Shown here: piece by piece, positions 21,866 through 28,927 of the stretch
Layout: every line of letters begins with the position of its first letter
How positions within the stretch are numbered: position 1 is the stretch's first letter
Source: Bacteroidota bacterium
Lineage (GTDB): Bacteria; Bacteroidota; Ignavibacteria; UBA10030; UBA8401
Direction: 5' to 3'
Length of the DNA: 36,613 bases
Assembly (NCBI GenBank): GCA_013361065.1
Contig: JABWAK010000017.1
Coordinates: 1-36,613 of the forward strand
Program-made: the position numbers and the translations under genes
The notes under the pieces: generated by a model
Told to the model about the DNA's origin: nothing
Database searches by the model: none
What the model saw: only the letters and a program-made list of their open reading frames with translations

Positions 21866-22284
21866 TGCATCACCTTCTCTTTCTTCTGTTTTGTGTGCCA
21901 TCGTTTCTCCAGATATGCTACCAGGCGGACCGCTTTCCATTTGGGCATCGCTTCGAGGGAGGTTTCATTGTAGCGGTCATTGATCATCTTCCAGAGATAG
22001 TGGTCCGACCAGCCCAGGAGTTTCTGGAAGGTCCGCGCCTGGGAGATCTGAGCTTCGCTGATCGGAGATCCTTCGGCGCCGTTCAGCGCTTGATAGATCC
22101 CATTCCGGAGGCGCTCCTTCACTTCGCGCAGGTGGAACATCAGAGTCCTGCACTGCGATGAAGAGAGATCCCGGTACTGCACGCCGAACTTTTCCATTGC
22201 AGCATTCTTTAAGAACTCGTGCGCCTCACCGGGAGCAATGCCCCCGGCGATCGCATGCAGCTTCCTATTGATGACTTGATCCAT
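21862..22284 (-). CDS. GemA-like regulatory protein (Mu gp16, DUF1018)
   Basis: The 140-residue product has the pattern of DUF1018/GemA proteins: an N-terminal helix (RKLHAIAGGIAPGEAHEFLK), then YRDLSSSQCRTLMFHLREVK, and a C-terminal part with LLGWSDHYLWKMINDRY and KWKAVRLVAYLEKRW. In Mu, GemA changes host gene expression and DNA topology during early infection. It starts 20 bases inside the MuB-like gene, as expected in a packed early operon. It is also where Mu-like phages usually carry it, downstream of B. Confidence 0.82.
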   Translation of the reverse strand: MDQVINRKLHAIAGGIAPGEAHEFLKNAAMEKFGVQYRDLSSSQCRTLMFHLREVKERLRNGIYQALNGAEGSPISEAQISQARTFQKLLGWSDHYLWKMINDRYNETSLEAMPKWKAVRLVAYLEKRWHTKQKKEKVMQ

Positions 22285-23230
22285 CGTTCCCGTCCGTATT
22301 GATGTCCATGAGCATGATGACTCGTTCTACAGCGTCGAGGATGTTACCGGCGCCGACCTTCGTCCAGGTGAGCTCCCCTTCCGAGATGTCACCGGCGATG
22401 AACCGCATCGCCTTGGCGAGCGTATCGATGTCTCCCCAGCTGCCGATCTTCTTCGCGATCTGTTTCGCTTCACCGGCATCCACCTGGATCCCATAGGCCG
22501 AGAGGAAGAGCTTCACATCGGCCGGAGTAGCATGCGGAAGTTCATACCGGTCATCGAAGCGGCGGAGCATCTGGCCGAACACTTCATCGGTGATCTTCTT
22601 GGCGGAGAGTTTGTCCTGGAACGCCGTCGAACCGATGATCACCAGGGAAACCTTCGTTTCATCATAGAGATCCCGCAGCATCTCGAATGAGTTGTCCCGG
22701 AGCTTCTGCGCTTCATCCACGATGATCACAGCGTTCTCATTGTCGAATCGCTCGCGGAGCTTGTGGAAGTACGGATTGCCGTGCATGGACCGGAATCCCT
22801 TGAGCGTTTCGATGGAGTTGAAGCCGAACCCGCGATAGATCTGCTGCAGCAGAGCGAGCTTGTTCCCTTTGTTATACTCATTCACCCGGATGTAGGACAT
22901 CTTCGTCTCTTCGATCGATGCGATCGTTGCATTGATCGCAAAGGTCTTCCCGACGCCGGTCGGACCGAACAGTGCATACATGCGCTTGTCCCAGGCAGCG
23001 GCGCGGAGGATCTTCTCAATGAACTTCTTCGAGCTGATGTCCACGGCGCGAATCGCTCCGCCGCGGCCGGTCATGGAGAGGACTGCATTCATCACCCTGG
23101 GGTCCTTCGCTTCGATGAGCTTGTCCACTTCGTTCGGAGAGACCGCGGCTCGCAGCGCGACCATCGGCCGCCAGCTCTGCAGCTTTCTCACCTTCCGGAG
23201 TTCCGATTCGAACATGGTTTCGGTCTTCAT
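22265..23230 (-). CDS. MuB-like target-selection AAA+ ATPase
   Basis: The 321-residue product carries a Walker A motif GPTGVGKT (residues 89-96) and a Walker B motif AVIIVDEAQ with D172 and E173. A sensor region follows (SLVIIGST), then a C-terminal helical domain, as in MuB, TnsC and related DNA-transposition ATPases. It would bind target DNA, activate the transposase and give target immunity. I prefer the ATG at 23230, eight bases after AGGAGGG; an ATG two codons earlier is too close to the ribosome site. Some Mu-like elements have longer N-termini with an HTH. Here a CII-like HTH protein is encoded separately just upstream. Confidence 0.92.
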   Translation of the reverse strand: MKTETMFESELRKVRKLQSWRPMVALRAAVSPNEVDKLIEAKDPRVMNAVLSMTGRGGAIRAVDISSKKFIEKILRAAAWDKRMYALFGPTGVGKTFAINATIASIEETKMSYIRVNEYNKGNKLALLQQIYRGFGFNSIETLKGFRSMHGNPYFHKLRERFDNENAVIIVDEAQKLRDNSFEMLRDLYDETKVSLVIIGSTAFQDKLSAKKITDEVFGQMLRRFDDRYELPHATPADVKLFLSAYGIQVDAGEAKQIAKKIGSWGDIDTLAKAMRFIAGDISEGELTWTKVGAGNILDAVERVIMLMDINTDGNDGSSHQ

Positions 23231-23232
23231 GA

Positions 23233-23703
23233 TCATCCCTCCTTGGCTGCGGAGACGGTATCCAGGAGATCCGCGAGTTCTTTGCTCACGAATGAGATCC
23301 GCTGGATGATCTCAATGCGTTCGGTCTCGGACACAGCGTTATCGGACATCGCTTTCTTGATGGCGCCGCAGAGTTCGCCGACCGCCTCCACCGTCTCCAG
23401 GGCTTCCTGGGATGGATTGTTCGAATGCGCGTGCTTATTCTTGCGGAATGACCAGGTGATATTGGATCCGGCGAAGACGGTATCCAGGAAGATCTTGTCG
23501 CCGGTGATCTCCGTGATGCGCTTCAGGAGAGTGGTAGGGATCGTGCGGCGACCGGAGACGTATGCGTAGAGATCCGAGTACTCCATCCCCAGCTGCTGGG
23601 AGAGCTTCAGGATGTCATACCGCTTCTGGGTGATGAAGACGTAGATCAGAGTGCCGATGAGTTCATCGTCGTGACGGAAACCGGGAGTGCTGTTGTTCTT
23701 CAT
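23233..23703 (-). CDS. CII-like (CP76-type) regulatory protein
   Basis: The 156-residue product has an N-terminal HTH-like domain (about residues 12-62, LIGTLIYVFITQKRYDILKL and LGMEYSDLYAYVSGRRTIP). It ends in a helical domain with VEAVGELCGAIKKAMSDNAV and a repeated Glu-rich pattern (ETERIEIIQRIS). This resembles the phage CII/CP76 regulatory family found beside MuB-like genes in some transposable phages. It may separate the DNA-binding N-terminus that MuB itself carries in Mu. Its stop overlaps the MuB region as ATGA, and AAGGAG precedes the ATG. Confidence 0.75.
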   Translation of the reverse strand: MKNNSTPGFRHDDELIGTLIYVFITQKRYDILKLSQQLGMEYSDLYAYVSGRRTIPTTLLKRITEITGDKIFLDTVFAGSNITWSFRKNKHAHSNNPSQEALETVEAVGELCGAIKKAMSDNAVSETERIEIIQRISFVSKELADLLDTVSAAKEG

Positions 23704-24038: not shown

Positions 24039-25949
24039 TTAAATGAATTTGTGCCGATACTTATTGTCTTCGCGCCTGGCTTTCTCCTCCGCATCCGGAT
24101 CCGGTAGAGCCTTCTTCGCTTCTTCGGTGAGTGTCTTCACATCCACCACCGGGAGAGCTCCTTGACCGTTGGTGATGTTCTTCACCGATTCCCTCACCTG
24201 CCTCTGGAAGTCTCCCTGCTTCTTCATCCGCTCTGGGAGGTTCGGTTCTGCGATCGGATGTGTCCGCTCGCTGTAGAGCGCTTCATCGATGTACCGGCCG
24301 GCCTCATCGAAGACCAGGAGAGAATTCGGAAGGAACTCGTGCTGCAGGCCATCCGGCCGGTTGAACCAAAAGCCATCGATAGGATTGTATTTGATGAAGA
24401 CATTCTGCAGCCGGTAGAGCGGCATCCGGGGTGACTCATAGAACATGTGCCGCTTGAATTCGATCTTGCCGTCCCTCCGGACCATCTTCGTTGCACCTTC
24501 CAGGAAGTGGAATGCGATCGTTGACGCTGCCACGCGGCGGACCGGATGATCGGCCGTGAGGATCTCCCATACCTGATTCGGTGAGCGTTCATCCATACCG
24601 TGTCCGGTGGAGATCCGGTTATTATGCCGGTCGATATACTCACGGATCGATGCTGCCAGATCGAAGTAGTCTGCGAACTGGAAGAACTCGCCGGTGTTCC
24701 GGTTGGTGAACTCCACATTGATCAGGTTCCGGACCTTCTTCTCGCTCCGGTACCGGTTCACGTTCATCTTCAACCACTCCGGCTGCATCCAGTACTTGGC
24801 GCCGGTCCAGTCCTGGAACTCCTTCGCCCAATCGGTGAACCCTCCGCGGCCGAATGCGCGTTCGATGATCTTGGCGCGGGGATTCTTGAAGATGGCATTG
24901 ATGTCCTTGATGCCGAGGCCGGTGATGATCCCTTTATACTCCATCTGCTTCACCAGGTCATCGACTTCATCCAGGCGGAGGACGGTGTTCACTTCCTCCA
25001 GCTGGGATCCGGAGACGCGCATTGCACGGAACTCCTTACCATTGTCCATGTATGCGTATTGAGGGATGCCGTACTGCGTGAAGCATGTATAGAGTGCGGT
25101 CTTCACTCCGAGGGAGTTCGGTGTCTTTGCCAGGGCAGCACCGACGATCTTGTATGTTCTCCAGTCCACCCACACGCACAGATGAGGCATCACCAGCTCG
25201 CCATCGATCCACTTCACGATGCGGTCCACACGCCAGTAATCACCCACGATCACTTCGAGCGGCTTCAGGTGTGTCCGGTCCCGGAGGATGGCCGGTGTCT
25301 GCTGCCGGAGCGCGATCGGTCCCTTGGTCACGAACTCAGATTCGAAGTGCAGCACCTTCTTCAACTCTGCATGGATCCGGTGCCAGGTGCGGGGTGAGAG
25401 CTCCGGCAGGAACAGATCGTCGAGGCATGCCTGGACGAAGTGCTTCGGAGTGTGCTTCTTGATCAGGTATCCCTGGACGATCTGCTGCTGCTCCACCGTG
25501 AACTTCATGAAGGCAGACTCCTTGTTCACCCTCCGGTCCGTGCTATGGTCCCGGTAGAGCCAGGCGCGGGAGACGCCGAGCAGCTGCGCGAGCATCATCA
25601 CCAGATCCGTCCGCTTCATCAGCCTCCATTCCGGCACCGCCTCCAGGAGACCGGATTCGGCCGGTGAGAGATTGTCGAAGTTCTTCCGGACGATCGAAGA
25701 TGCCAGGAGCCGGTTCCCTTCGTTCGGTTCGAGGGACCGTCTCACGGAGAGACTCTTCGCCTGGACCGGGGTGATCCACTTCTGTTCGAGGAGACTGTCC
25801 ACAGAGATCTGGAGCTGGCGGCCGGTCGGAATAACTTCATATCGTGTATCGATGGATCTATTTCGTTTTACCTGCATTCGGAGCGCATCATAGTCCTTCC
25901 CCATTGTTTCGGAGAGCGCTCTCAGTGGAATCCATTGATTCGTGGTCAT
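24039..25949 (-). CDS. MuA-type DDE transposase
   Basis: From the ATG at 25949 the protein has 636 residues. An N-terminal HTH/Mu-type DNA-binding domain (about 1-75) has the IPLRALSETMGKDYDALRMQ pattern. Next comes a second binding region, then the RNase H-like catalytic core with D237 (VIVGDYWRVD), D302 (YAYMDNGKEF) and E363 (KIIERAFGRGG). The spacings of 65 and 61 residues are close to those of MuA. A beta-barrel domain and a charged C-terminal tail (about 575-636), where MuA binds MuB, follow. It cuts and joins phage ends into target DNA during integration and replicative transposition. A start 18 codons upstream is open but has no ribosome site. Confidence 0.95.
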   Translation of the reverse strand: MTTNQWIPLRALSETMGKDYDALRMQVKRNRSIDTRYEVIPTGRQLQISVDSLLEQKWITPVQAKSLSVRRSLEPNEGNRLLASSIVRKNFDNLSPAESGLLEAVPEWRLMKRTDLVMMLAQLLGVSRAWLYRDHSTDRRVNKESAFMKFTVEQQQIVQGYLIKKHTPKHFVQACLDDLFLPELSPRTWHRIHAELKKVLHFESEFVTKGPIALRQQTPAILRDRTHLKPLEVIVGDYWRVDRIVKWIDGELVMPHLCVWVDWRTYKIVGAALAKTPNSLGVKTALYTCFTQYGIPQYAYMDNGKEFRAMRVSGSQLEEVNTVLRLDEVDDLVKQMEYKGIITGLGIKDINAIFKNPRAKIIERAFGRGGFTDWAKEFQDWTGAKYWMQPEWLKMNVNRYRSEKKVRNLINVEFTNRNTGEFFQFADYFDLAASIREYIDRHNNRISTGHGMDERSPNQVWEILTADHPVRRVAASTIAFHFLEGATKMVRRDGKIEFKRHMFYESPRMPLYRLQNVFIKYNPIDGFWFNRPDGLQHEFLPNSLLVFDEAGRYIDEALYSERTHPIAEPNLPERMKKQGDFQRQVRESVKNITNGQGALPVVDVKTLTEEAKKALPDPDAEEKARREDNKYRHKFI

Positions 25950-26060
25950 GTGTTTACTTCGGTTCCGATTATTTGACAGGTGAAGAGTTGTGAAAATCAG
26001 CACGGTGCACTACTTTGTCACATTACTTCTGTTCATTGTTGATGAGCAGTTCAATAATAA

Positions 26061-26246
26061 TCACGCAGCTTTCCCTCGTTTAAAGTTTCGGAGTTCACCA
26101 TGGATGAGCGCTTCGATGTCGCGGATCCGCTCGGCGTTGTGCCGCTTCCCATTGAGCAATTGACCTACATACTGGCGGGTAATTCCCAATCGACGGGCGA
26201 TTTCCGCATTGTTCACGATCGGTTTGATTTTGTTCTTCGATTTCAT
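26061..26246 (-). CDS. Ner/Cro-like small DNA-binding protein
   Basis: The 61-residue basic protein is little more than a helix-turn-helix (about residues 11-45, NAEIARRLGITRQYVGQLLN followed by GKRHNAERIRDIEALIHG). In Mu, the ner gene lies in exactly this place, as the first gene of the early transcript between the repressor and A, and it shuts down early and repressor promoters. The ATG at 26246 follows AT-rich sequence with a weak ribosome site. The role rests on position and size. Confidence 0.78.
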   Translation of the reverse strand: MKSKNKIKPIVNNAEIARRLGITRQYVGQLLNGKRHNAERIRDIEALIHGELRNFKRGKAA

Positions 26247-26277: not shown

Positions 26278-26309
26278 GGTATAAAAAATTTATACCCTTG
26301 TCAAGGGTA
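26278..26309. promoter_or_regulatory. Overlapping operator palindromes and early promoter
   Basis: Two palindromes overlap: GGTATAAA-AAA-TTTATACC (26278-26296) and TACCCTT-GTC-AAGGGTA (26293-26309), both with 3-base spacers. On the minus strand TTGACA (26304-26299) lies inside the second palindrome and can serve as the -35 of the early promoter, with TACCTT 17 bases on. A related AT-rich half (AGTATAAAAAAATTATA) follows just before the repressor ATG. This is the expected lysis-lysogeny switch between ner and the repressor. Confidence 0.75.
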
Positions 26310-26328: not shown

Positions 26329-26712
26329 ATGCCGTTTTCAGAGAATTTAAGCGCGAAGAGGATAGCCAGGGGGTTCAGTCAGCAAGAACTTGCTGAACGA
26401 GTGGGCAGCAAAAAGCAGAATATCGCTGCTTACGAGCAGGGACGCGCTCAACCATCAAATGAACTTCTATTAAAAATTGCTGCTGAGTTAAATACCACAC
26501 CAGGTGAACTTTTAGGGACCGAAAAATCGAAGAATGAAACAGCTGAGAAGTTCACTTATTGGGAATCGCGCACCGGTCACTTCACAGAACAAGAGAAGAA
26601 GGATCTTGATAAATTCATTCAAGAGCTGCTAACAGAGGATAGGGGAAACAGGAAAACTGCGATGGATGTTGCGAGAGTGGTATTAAAACAGGGAAAGAAA
26701 AAGAAGGAATAG
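26329..26712 (+). CDS. XRE-family repressor
   Basis: The 127-residue protein has a typical N-terminal Cro/C1 HTH (residues about 6-58) with RGFSQQELAERVGSKKQNIA, the YEQGRAQPSNELLLKIA turn-helix and TPGELLG at the end. A charged C-terminal part probably serves dimerisation. It stands divergent from the Ner-like gene with operator palindromes between, so it is the probable lysogeny repressor. No ribosome site is seen before the ATG at 26329; the mRNA may be leaderless. An ImmA-type protease gene follows after a few bases, suggesting control by cleavage rather than by RecA. Confidence 0.85.
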   Translation: MPFSENLSAKRIARGFSQQELAERVGSKKQNIAAYEQGRAQPSNELLLKIAAELNTTPGELLGTEKSKNETAEKFTYWESRTGHFTEQEKKDLDKFIQELLTEDRGNRKTAMDVARVVLKQGKKKKE

Positions 26713-26714
26713 CT

Positions 26715-27137
26715 GTGAGATCTGTTACTGATTATTATCAAGAGCTCTTGACAAAATATAGTGGAACAATTAATTTCAAAAGGATCTGTGCAGACGAAGA
26801 AATATTAGCCGTTAAAGGCATCCTCCCGGATGGTCTTAACGGCTTTTTTATTTCTGATGGTGATCGAAAAGTTATTGTTCTTAACGAGAAAATAAGCTAC
26901 GAAGAACGCAGGGATTGGGCTTTTCATGAGCTCTGGCATGCACTGAAGAGTCCGCAAAGCAGCACATATCACGGCTCTATTAAGGAAGAATATAAAGCAA
27001 ATCTATTTGCAGCATTGTGCCGTGCACCGGTGGTCCGCGAAGGAGACACCATTGAATCCGTTAGAGAGAAGTATAATTGTTCAATTTGGCTGGCTAAATT
27101 TCGACTCGATTATGCCGTAAAACAACTCCAAAGGTGA
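26715..27137 (+). CDS. ImmA/IrrE-type metallopeptidase
   Basis: The 140-residue product starts at a GTG three bases after the repressor stop, with AAGGA before it. It has the zinc motif HELWH (H71, E72, H75) and a downstream KEEYKANLFAA helix with E91/E92 as probable third ligand, the signature of ImmA/IrrE peptidases. Such enzymes cleave the partner XRE repressor and so induce mobile elements, as in ICEBs1. The adjoining repressor gene makes this pairing likely. It implies that the prophage responds to a signal other than the SOS response. Confidence 0.87.
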   Translation: MRSVTDYYQELLTKYSGTINFKRICADEEILAVKGILPDGLNGFFISDGDRKVIVLNEKISYEERRDWAFHELWHALKSPQSSTYHGSIKEEYKANLFAALCRAPVVREGDTIESVREKYNCSIWLAKFRLDYAVKQLQR

Positions 27138-27141
27138 GTGT

Positions 27142-27732
27142 ATGAAGAAAATTGTGATCTTGATATTCGTTCTGAGTTGCGTGGGATTGGCCGATGAAGT
27201 CTATCTAAAGACAGGATATGTAATCAAGAATGTTACTGTGAAAGACACAGTGAACAATTTTGTGGTATTATCATCCAGGGATGGAGATAAGAGAATCGTT
27301 CTATCTCAAATTCTTAAGATCGTTCTCTCTAATGTTGATATTAATTCAGGCCCATCAATGGAAGTCTTTGAAGAGAAAATGGTACAGCGTAGTTTCGCGC
27401 AGACAAATGAGAAAAATGAACCGATTCTAGTAACTTACGAGCGACCCAGAATAGGAATGGCATCCATTTCAATTATTGCTGCATTATTGGCTTACGACAA
27501 TTTTGATCAGTCATCTAATCTGCAGACGGAGATAGATAGGATGAATTCACTAAATACGGGATCGGGAATCTCTGTATCCTTCGACACTTCGCACTATGAA
27601 TCAGAAAAATCAAAAAGGATCGCATTGGGTGTAGCATATAGCATTGTCGCTATCGTTAACCTGGTCTATTCACTCGAAAAGGTTGAAGTGAAGGCATCAA
27701 GTAACAGTATCGGCATGGCCTATCATTTTTAG
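27142..27732 (+). CDS. Exported or lipoprotein-like protein near the prophage end
   Basis: The 196-residue product starts with a signal peptide (MKKIVILIFVLSCVGLADEV). VLSC could be a lipobox, or cleavage may follow GLA. The body has a strand-rich part (YLKTGYVIKNVTVKDTVNNF and an SSRDGDKRIVLSQI stretch) and a hydrophobic helix near 111-124 (MASISIIAALLAYD). A second hydrophobic stretch lies near 166-180. The first half resembles small secreted proteins with a beta fold, but I recognise no family. It follows the repressor-ImmA pair after four bases, so it is likely made in the lysogen and may change the host surface. Confidence 0.7.
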   Translation: MKKIVILIFVLSCVGLADEVYLKTGYVIKNVTVKDTVNNFVVLSSRDGDKRIVLSQILKIVLSNVDINSGPSMEVFEEKMVQRSFAQTNEKNEPILVTYERPRIGMASISIIAALLAYDNFDQSSNLQTEIDRMNSLNTGSGISVSFDTSHYESEKSKRIALGVAYSIVAIVNLVYSLEKVEVKASSNSIGMAYHF

Positions 27733-27827
27733 TGTTCGAAAGGTTGATTTTGTTCGAAAGCTCTGTTCGAAAGGTTCATTTTTTGATGTAATTTACGCTG
27801 TTTTTGGTCCTGAGTTGTTCGAAAGGT
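27733..27827. repeat. Four TGTTCGAAAG sites, probable transposase end-binding sites
   Basis: TGTTCGAAAGGTT occurs at 27733-27745 and 27764-27776, TGTTCGAAAGCT at 27751-27762 and TGTTCGAAAGGT at 27816-27827, all in the same orientation. The first and third also share ATTTT two bases on. They begin right after the last phage stop codon and before host DNA. Mu ends carry several MuA-binding sites with a CGAAA core, so these are good candidates for the repressor-side end sites. Confidence 0.68.
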
Positions 27828-28143
27828 CTATTGCTATAAATGACATCTCCATTTTTTTGCTGAAATCCGGACAATTAATCTCAAATTGATGGCATAACCC
27901 CTCCTCTCCGTTCACCGTTGTCTCAAGTATCTGACATAGCCATACCCACCGTTCACCGAATCTTCTTTGCAAATATCCGCGTAAACCTGCAAATTTGAAC
28001 CACTTATCACGCTAGATCAGGCCGCTTTCCGTTGCAGCCATTTTTCACATTCTGTCTCAAGTCTGTGGCACGTTTCACGAGCTCCTGAGGGTCCGTTAAA
28101 AATTCTTCAGAATCGTGAAAAACAGATGAAACAATCGTATATT
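27828..28143. other. Gene-free junction between prophage and host
   Basis: No coding frame is supported here. Two short direct repeats occur: CCGTTCACCG at 27908-27917 and 27949-27958, and TGTCTCAAGT at 27919-27928 and 28053-28062. The prophage terminus (expected to end in CA on this strand) and any target duplication lie somewhere in this stretch or just before it. I cannot place it without the other end. Confidence 0.5.
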
Positions 28144-28171
28144 GGAAACCGTAGAAACTAAATCAGTTTCC
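28144..28171. promoter_or_regulatory. TetR-type operator, copy 1 (28 bp)
   Basis: The site begins GGAAACCG and ends CAGTTTCC, making a 28-bp inverted repeat of the same length and outer sequence as a second site at 28236-28263. It lies upstream of the TetR gene and probably overlaps the operon promoter. Confidence 0.7.
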
Positions 28172-28202
28172 TACAATAAATAATACGATGGTTCGTCAAC
28201 AT

Positions 28203-28224
28203 ATGCAGAAATCCTGCATTTTTT
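28203..28224 (+). terminator. Hairpin with T-run in the TetR leader
   Basis: ATGCAG (28203-28208) and CTGCAT (28214-28219) form a 6-bp stem followed by six T. It lies between the two operators. It may be a weak terminator that insulates the host operon from prophage transcription, or a leader attenuator. The short stem makes this uncertain. Confidence 0.4.
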
Positions 28225-28235
28225 AATGGAACAAT

Positions 28236-28263
28236 GGAAACCGAAAATACGTTATCGGTTTCC
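28236..28263. promoter_or_regulatory. TetR-type operator, copy 2 (28 bp)
   Basis: GGAAACCGA and TCGGTTTCC are perfect 9-bp arms around a 10-base centre. Length and outer bases equal those of copy 1. It ends 25 bases before the GTG start of the TetR gene, which supports autoregulation and argues against the earlier in-frame ATG at 28226. Confidence 0.75.
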
Positions 28264-28288
28264 CGACCACATCAATCAGGAGACAACG

Positions 28289-28927
28289 GTGTCCGATTTA
28301 GAGATCAAGAACAGGATCCTTGAAGCAGCGCGGGAGAACTTCTTCGCGAATGGATTCAGCAAAGTGACCATGGAAGAGTTCGCCCAGAGCATGGGGATGA
28401 GCAAGAAGACCATCTATAAGTTCTTCGAAAGCAAGGATGAGATCGTCAAAGCGATCACCCGCGAGAAGCTGAACAAGGTCCACGAGACCTGCGAATGCAT
28501 CCGCGTCGACAATACCAAGGAATTCATCGACCGGATCAAAGCGACCACCACCTACATCACCGGTGAGATGCAGCAGATGAAACCGCAGTTCTATCTGGAT
28601 GTGCAGCGGACCATGCCGGACCTCTGGAAGGAAGTGGAGAGCTTCCGCCACGAGAAGGTGATGAGCGACTTCGGGATGATGGTGAAGCAGGGTGTGGAGC
28701 TCGGCATCTTCCGTTCCGATGTGAATGCCGATGTCTTCGTGCTGATGTACGCCACCGCCATGCAGAGCGTCATCAATCCGGAGGTGCTCTCTCACCTCCC
28801 CATCAATATCAGTCAGGCCTACACCGCCGCGGTGAACGTCTTCTTCGAAGGGATGCTGACCACCGAAGGCCGCGAAAAGTACAAGAACACACTCCAAGAA
28901 CCAGAGCACAATAAAGGTATCCTATGA
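28289..28927 (+). CDS. TetR-family repressor of an efflux operon
   Basis: I choose the GTG at 28289, seven bases after AGGAG. The ATG at 28226 would put the second operator inside the gene. The 212-residue protein begins with a TetR HTH (about residues 5-52, NRILEAARENFFANGFSKVT, then MEEFAQSMGMSKKTIYKFFE) and continues with a helical ligand-binding domain. Its stop overlaps the TolC-like start as ATGA. It likely represses the tetR-tolC-mfp-rnd operon until an inducer binds. The two 28-bp palindromes upstream are the probable sites. Confidence 0.9.
   Translation: MSDLEIKNRILEAARENFFANGFSKVTMEEFAQSMGMSKKTIYKFFESKDEIVKAITREKLNKVHETCECIRVDNTKEFIDRIKATTTYITGEMQQMKPQFYLDVQRTMPDLWKEVESFRHEKVMSDFGMMVKQGVELGIFRSDVNADVFVLMYATAMQSVINPEVLSHLPINISQAYTAAVNVFFEGMLTTEGREKYKNTLQEPEHNKGIL

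Follow-up and report, generated by a model that had tools for sequence, protein, structure and literature searches.

A contig from a Bacteroidota bacterium (Ignavibacteria, UBA8401; assembly GCA_013361065.1, contig JABWAK010000017.1) carries one side of a Mu-like prophage. Close to the end of that prophage, four copies of a short box lie on the same strand. What are these boxes for? The initial annotation took them to be a set of end sites for the prophage's MuA-like transposase. Phage Mu offers another possible role. The MuA subdomain Ialpha is described as a winged helix-turn-helix (HTH) domain that binds an enhancer, with Ibeta and Igamma binding the phage ends (PMC3362531; PMC3562280); six MuA subunits, anchored at the ends by Ibeta/gamma, use Ialpha to reach across to the enhancer. 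A survey of Leptospira prophages notes that this enhancer-binding domain seems, to date, to be confined to Mu (PMC8705779), and the literature searched, which covers the field in part, yielded no enhancer of this kind in other Mu-like phages.

Here we analyze the whole contig, 36,613 nucleotides in length and referred to below as the window (the genome, 3.8 Mb, is assembled in 288 contigs, of which this is C287). Its prophage, which we call G000, is compared with related elements in other assemblies. The boxes are distinct from the end sites, they are absent from the right ends of two relatives, and they hold their spacing to the left end even where their sequence has diverged in step with the transposase's N-terminal domain. 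We consider it fairly probable that the four boxes are the analogue of a transpositional enhancer, bound by an Ialpha-like domain of the transposase.

The box array and the prophage ends

The 10-mer TGTTCGAAAG matches the + strand exactly at 27733, 27751, 27764 and 27816, bearing out the four same-strand boxes of the initial annotation with their start-to-start distances of 18, 13 and 52. Copies 1, 3 and 4 lengthen to TGTTCGAAAGGT, whereas copy 2 reads TGTTCGAAAGC. Box 1 (TGTTCGAAAGG, 27733-27743) directly follows the TAG stop codon of an open reading frame (ORF) of 196 amino acids and starts 336 bp from the phage terminus, counted on the reverse complement. Boxes 2 (TGTTCGAAAGC, 27751-27761) and 3 (TGTTCGAAAGG, 27764-27774) are likewise exact matches, and box 4 (TGTTCGAAAGG, 27816-27826) comes closest to the phage end, at a distance of 253 bp from the terminus. 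The array thus spans 253 to about 346 bp, counted from the left terminus; it follows the lysogeny operon and is separate from the repressor palindromes.

Such a cluster is not a chance event, because 100 random sequences, generated by a first-order Markov model with the composition of the window, contained no 8-mer that occurs four times within 150 bp. The octamer TTCGAAAG has seven exact matches in the window where 2.4 are expected, and the three that are not boxes (172, 1183 and 28424) stand isolated. In the 3.8 Mb genome the box 10-mer has nine matches: the four boxes and five others on five other contigs. One argument made earlier, that a CGAAA core gives the boxes an orientation opposite to that of L1/R1 in Mu, we have dropped; TTCGAA is its own reverse complement, so this orientation carries little information.

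A second set of motifs lies beyond the boxes. Mu-like TCTCAA-n-TGGCA repeats, all on the + strand, begin at 27879 (L3), 27921 (L2) and 28055 (L1). L3 (TCTCAAATTGATGGCAT, 27879-27895) has an equal position in the related elements G399, L012 and G410, and L2 (TCTCAAGTATCTGACAT, 27921-27937) is a motif match at a kept spacing. L1 at 28055 reads TCTCAAGTCTGTGGCAC followed by GTTTCA; together, L1 and the predicted left terminus (TCTCAAGTCTGTGGCACGTTTCA, 28055-28077) end with the CA at 28076-28077, some 250 bp past the last box. The L1/terminus sequence matches both ends of G410 as well as R1 of G399, G407 and G438. In the flank, homology with non-carrier relatives sets in only at about 28096-28138, although the sister G399 matches throughout. 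Because the same motif ends other elements and flank homology starts only beyond it, we take 27879-28077 to be attL with L1-L3, with a putative terminus at 28077.

The opposite ends of the relatives have the same kind of site. The right end of G399 is TGTAACGTGCCATCAATTTGAGACGG; it adjoins the last ORF, and 22 bp further in the motif is repeated. G407 has its left flank on contig C8 and its right flank on C106, where the host DNA is the gene found upstream of tetR in non-carriers. Both ends of G410 lie on one contig (3616-31368), making a complete element of 27.75 kb with R1 and R2 22 bp apart, and the ends of G438 are placed at 1033 and 30021. Inverted sites with TG/CA termini are therefore found at the left end in the window, at both ends of G410 and G438, and at both flanks of G399 and G407. 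A search of the window's assembly with the end-site pattern at up to two mismatches did not recover the right end of this prophage, and a scan of viral contigs with an end-site pattern gave no match.

Could the boxes themselves be transposase end sites? They lie near one end and are linked to the transposase by covariation (see below), as end sites might be. Yet distinct L1-L3 and R1-R2 sites with TG/CA termini are present in G399, G407, G410 and G438, and the boxes are missing where a partner set should be. The initial annotation had proposed searching for the boxes at the other prophage end and had named their absence there as evidence against its claim. They are absent from that end both in G399, the sister whose transposase is 94% identical, and in the complete G410. 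No copy of TGTTCGAAAG with at most one mismatch occurs in the 12,000 bases read of the G399 right-end contig; in G410 all four exact copies of the 10-mer box are in the left array, and one copy with one mismatch lies elsewhere. We rejected the end-site role on the basis of these two right ends and regard it as extremely improbable. What remains is an internal, one-sided cluster of sites, as in a Mu-type transpositional enhancer.

Arrays in related elements

If the boxes serve the transposase, its relatives should be informative. All the assemblies compared are draft bins. With the window's own genome included in each count, relatives of the transposase occur in 5 of 98 genomes of the order (E<=1e-20), in 5 of 391 genomes of the class in an alignment search (E<=1e-30), and in 10 of 395 genomes of the phylum (E<=1e-3), mostly as short distant matches. 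L012 is a further relative from the genome collection; as its contig end overlaps that of G407's C8 by 127 bases, we treat L012 and G407 as a single element. The L012 contig is filed under a Zoogloea metagenome-assembled genome but is probably misbinned, because both phage and flank match carriers of this Bacteroidota-type lineage. Viral contigs scanned with the transposase gave one distant relative at first and six in an alignment scan; scans with B and CII-like alignments gave no relatives, and L013 and L090-L095 contain no array of an 8-mer in four copies within 150 bp.

Six elements were compared: G000, G399, L012, G410, G243 and G438. In G399 the array lies on one contig and the transposase on another, which we treat as parts of a single element, and the G243 contig ends before the terminus, so that geometry can be read in G000, G399, L012 and G410 only. 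In five of the six, the stretch from the lysogeny genes to the end contains an array. The sequence of the box is another matter: G000 and G399 have TGTTCGAAAGG, G410 has TGTACCAAAG, G243 has five copies of TGTAACAAAGG/TGTAACGAAGG, and L012 has TGACTAAACC and variants of it. The outer letters of the box are TGT...AAAG in G000, G399 and G410.

Place is kept far better than sequence. The cores of L1, L2 and L3 begin exactly 19, 153 and 195 bp from the terminus in all four readable elements, although the transposases of G399, G410 and L012 are 94, 41 and 69% identical, respectively, to the window's. Counted from the terminus, boxes start at 253/305/318/336 in G000, 254/306/319/338 in G399 and 254/307/320/338 in G410. 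Those of L012 start at 263/273/318/329/348, about one helical turn further in, with the box at 318 inverted.

These comparisons bear on a further explanation, in which the array serves a host protein or another phage protein (a nucleoid protein, for example, or a terminator-like factor) unconnected with the transposase. In favor of such a factor, binding of the array by any named protein is likewise only putative. The boxes, however, change between elements in related hosts and at the same time keep their phase to L1-L3, and non-carrier relatives have no array near tetR: eight such loci show one isolated box match, at one locus, and no end-site match, which rejects the boxes as a host feature. 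The inverted box in L012 speaks for recognition of duplex DNA, and for this reason we set aside an RNA element in the 3' untranslated region. An unconnected binding protein seems to us quite unlikely.

Which protein changes with the boxes

The MuA-like transposase of the window (654 amino acids, 24039-26003, - strand; DDE_2 E 2.2e-13, PHROG 310 E 2.2e-47) was compared between elements region by region. Between G000 and L012, which differ in their boxes, only 16 of 62 residues (26%) are identical in residues 24-85, against 67% in 96-238, 92% in 239-420 and 75% in 421-590. Between G000 and G399, which share a box, the same regions are 90, 95, 97 and 96% identical. Other proteins are conserved between G000 and L012: Ner is 79%, the CII-like protein 80% and B 81% identical. 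The case is clearest in this single pair: the N-terminal domain and the box have changed, whereas the end sites, the catalytic core, Ner, the CII-like protein and B have not. Ner and the CII-like protein are unlikely box binders, since they are conserved while the box is replaced. G000, G399 and G410 have a nearly identical wing, TRYE[VI]IPTGRQLQIS; L012 differs from all three in the wing, the recognition helix and the box. A kept spacing to L1-L3, with a sequence that changes with the N-terminal domain, is what an internal enhancer would be expected to show, and not an end. The tie between the boxes and the MuA relative thus holds in altered form: it fails for end sites and survives for an array that keeps its spacing to L1-L3 and varies with the winged helix.

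The candidate box binder lies at approximately residues 19-88 of the transposase (25740-25949, - strand), as judged from a predicted model and from the comparison above. AlphaFold2 models the N-terminus as strand-helix-helix-strand-strand-helix, a winged HTH, with a predicted local distance difference test (pLDDT) score of about 82-88 in residues 11-60. In VIA-align searches with this model, MuA Ialpha ranks first (1tns, Z 6.9, root-mean-square deviation (rmsd) 4.7, 73 aligned) and the DNA-binding domain of the Mu repressor second (1qpm, Z 6.4, rmsd 3.6, 66 aligned).

Several observations count against an enhancer read by this domain. The models of both N-termini, from the window and from L012, rest on three-sequence alignments, and with the L012 model 1tns ranks only 17th (Z 5.3, rmsd 2.4, 54 aligned), the Mu domains being just some of many winged helices matched (1qpm Z 5.5, rmsd 3.8, 65 aligned). 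Z scores under 8 may reflect no more than the common winged-helix fold. Foldseek gave no match at E<=0.001, the Pfam family of the Mu N-terminal domain was absent among the families listed for six members at E<=10, and a sequence search of the PDB with the N-terminal alignment returned no match. Because the L012 model ranks the Mu domains among many others and the Foldseek and sequence searches gave no significant match, we claim a predicted fold class and a position for the domain, and not established homology to Ialpha. The covariation rests on only four independent box types. An exact Mantel test comparing identity in the N-terminal domain with difference between boxes gave rho -0.38 with 7 of 24 permutations as extreme, which is not significant; the sign is as expected for the N-terminal domain, whereas identity in the catalytic domain has the opposite of the expected sign (rho +0.78). 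G438, with a transposase 43% identical, has no array inside its putative ends. An array of TGTCCGCGAGG with other spacing lies just outside them (L049 191-323), in an 867-bp segment beside the prophage (L049 1-867) that has 115-bp inverted repeats (95%). This segment may derive from a deletion, represent a second phage end or be an artefact of assembly, and the presence of the array in such a segment means that the G438 contig may be rearranged. Flanking duplications also disagree among elements: ATAA (4 bp) in G410, CAGC (4 bp) in G399, CTCCTCACCCG (11 bp) in G407 and none in G438, against 5 bp in Mu. They were read from L048/L101 (G410), L080/L058 (G399), and L082 and L083 (G407).

The repressor, too, differs between G000 and L012 and therefore remains a rival binder. 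There is no blastp match between the two repressors at E<=1e-3 (29% over 51 amino acids in another comparison), and the boxes directly follow the last gene of the repressor operon. They might be operators near attL that keep the end silent, for example, or stop transcription. But none of the five elements has a box, at up to two mismatches, in the stretch between repressor and Ner genes, where the putative operators are inverted repeats of other sequence. The repressors of L012 and G243 are 49% identical over the HTH part (69 amino acids), yet their boxes are very different, and such a role would not call for a rigid spacing to L1-L3. We think it unlikely. Alternatively, the small terminase might recognize the array, near the left end, as a packaging (pac) site: the array is one-sided, and Mu packaging begins from the left side (PMC5977238). 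In G243, however, the large terminase is almost unrelated (22%) and the putative small terminase divergent (29%), yet the box is of the same kind. We regard a pac site as very unlikely.

Gene content and comparison with Mu

The gene content fits a Mu-like prophage. A MuA-family DDE transposase occurs together with a MuB-like AAA ATPase (22265-23236; PHROG 296 E 1.4e-23), and the - strand also carries the regulators already named as poor box-binder candidates, CII-like (23233-23703) and Ner-like HTH (26061-26246). Terminase, portal and head genes lie further in. On the + strand are an HTH_3 repressor (26329-26712), an M78 (ImmA/IrrE-like) protease (26715-27137) and the 196-amino-acid ORF with its hydrophobic N-terminus (27142-27732), the last gene of the lysogeny operon. 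The putative repressor operator and early promoter (26278-26309, no strand assigned) consists of the palindromes GGTATAAAAAATTTATACC and TACCCTTGTCAAGGGTA, which are unlike the boxes. The immunity module has been exchanged among the elements: G000, G399 and G410 have the HTH repressor and the M78 protease (26329-27137; L048 4319-5160), while L012 (1093-1521) and G243 (L047 1931-2329) have a different HTH repressor and no detected M78 gene. As to location, the prophages of G000, G399 and L012/G407 lie upstream of the same tetR-efflux operon (28077-28300; L024, L012, L082, L083), and G410 lies upstream of a different tetR (tetR-HlyD-MFS; L048 2863-3537). Either the first three share their descent, or the elements have a target preference for tetR promoters.

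How do these features compare with known systems? As in the Mu enhancer (the internal activation sequence, operators O1-O2) and its partner Ialpha, there is an internal, one-sided cluster nearer the left end, and the transposase has an additional N-terminal winged helix, here predicted, ahead of its end-binding domains. The Mu enhancer, however, lies at the repressor operators, in an intergenic segment to the right of the repressor gene (PMC5977238), whereas the boxes lie between the lysogeny operon and the phage end and are absent from the putative operator. The end sites resemble those of Mu, the D3112 group and KS10: the left end has three sites, all oriented alike, the right end has two or more, 22 bp apart and inverted to the left ones, and the termini are TG/CA. 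They differ in sequence (TCTCAA..TGGCA) and in a spacing of 134 and 42 bp; PMC4378225 places L1-L3 at 10, 93 and 124 bp (compare also PMC2628397). The Leptospira transposable prophages of the survey cited above share a Mu-type transposase outside Proteobacteria and, in some, TG-CA ends, but differ in that a winged helix is predicted here at the N-terminal position.

From these sequence comparisons we infer binding of the boxes by the N-terminal domain and, through this binding, a stimulation of transposition. In such a mechanism, transposase subunits would grip the ends at L1-L3 and R1-R2 with the second and third of their N-terminal DNA-binding domains, while the first, a winged helix like Ialpha, would grip the TGT-N5-AGG boxes. 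Left end, right end and array would be gathered in one complex before cleavage. The anatomy agrees with the division of labor in Mu: end sites are conserved along with the end-binding part of the protein, boxes change along with the extra N-terminal domain, and the spacings are all phased.

More tentatively, and with a little less than even confidence, we propose that the Mu-type enhancer extends beyond Mu and its near kin, here uncoupled from repressor control and fixed beside attL. Its code would be exchangeable, with array and N-terminal domain replaced together while the core, the end sites and the helical geometry are kept; it would amount to an element-specific password for assembly of the three sites. 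A family whose members naturally couple a box code with an N-terminal domain, on ends that are otherwise conserved, would make it testable how Ialpha reads its site and whether the enhancer is a topological scaffold without being a repressor operator; it would also provide orthogonal pairs of transposase and enhancer.
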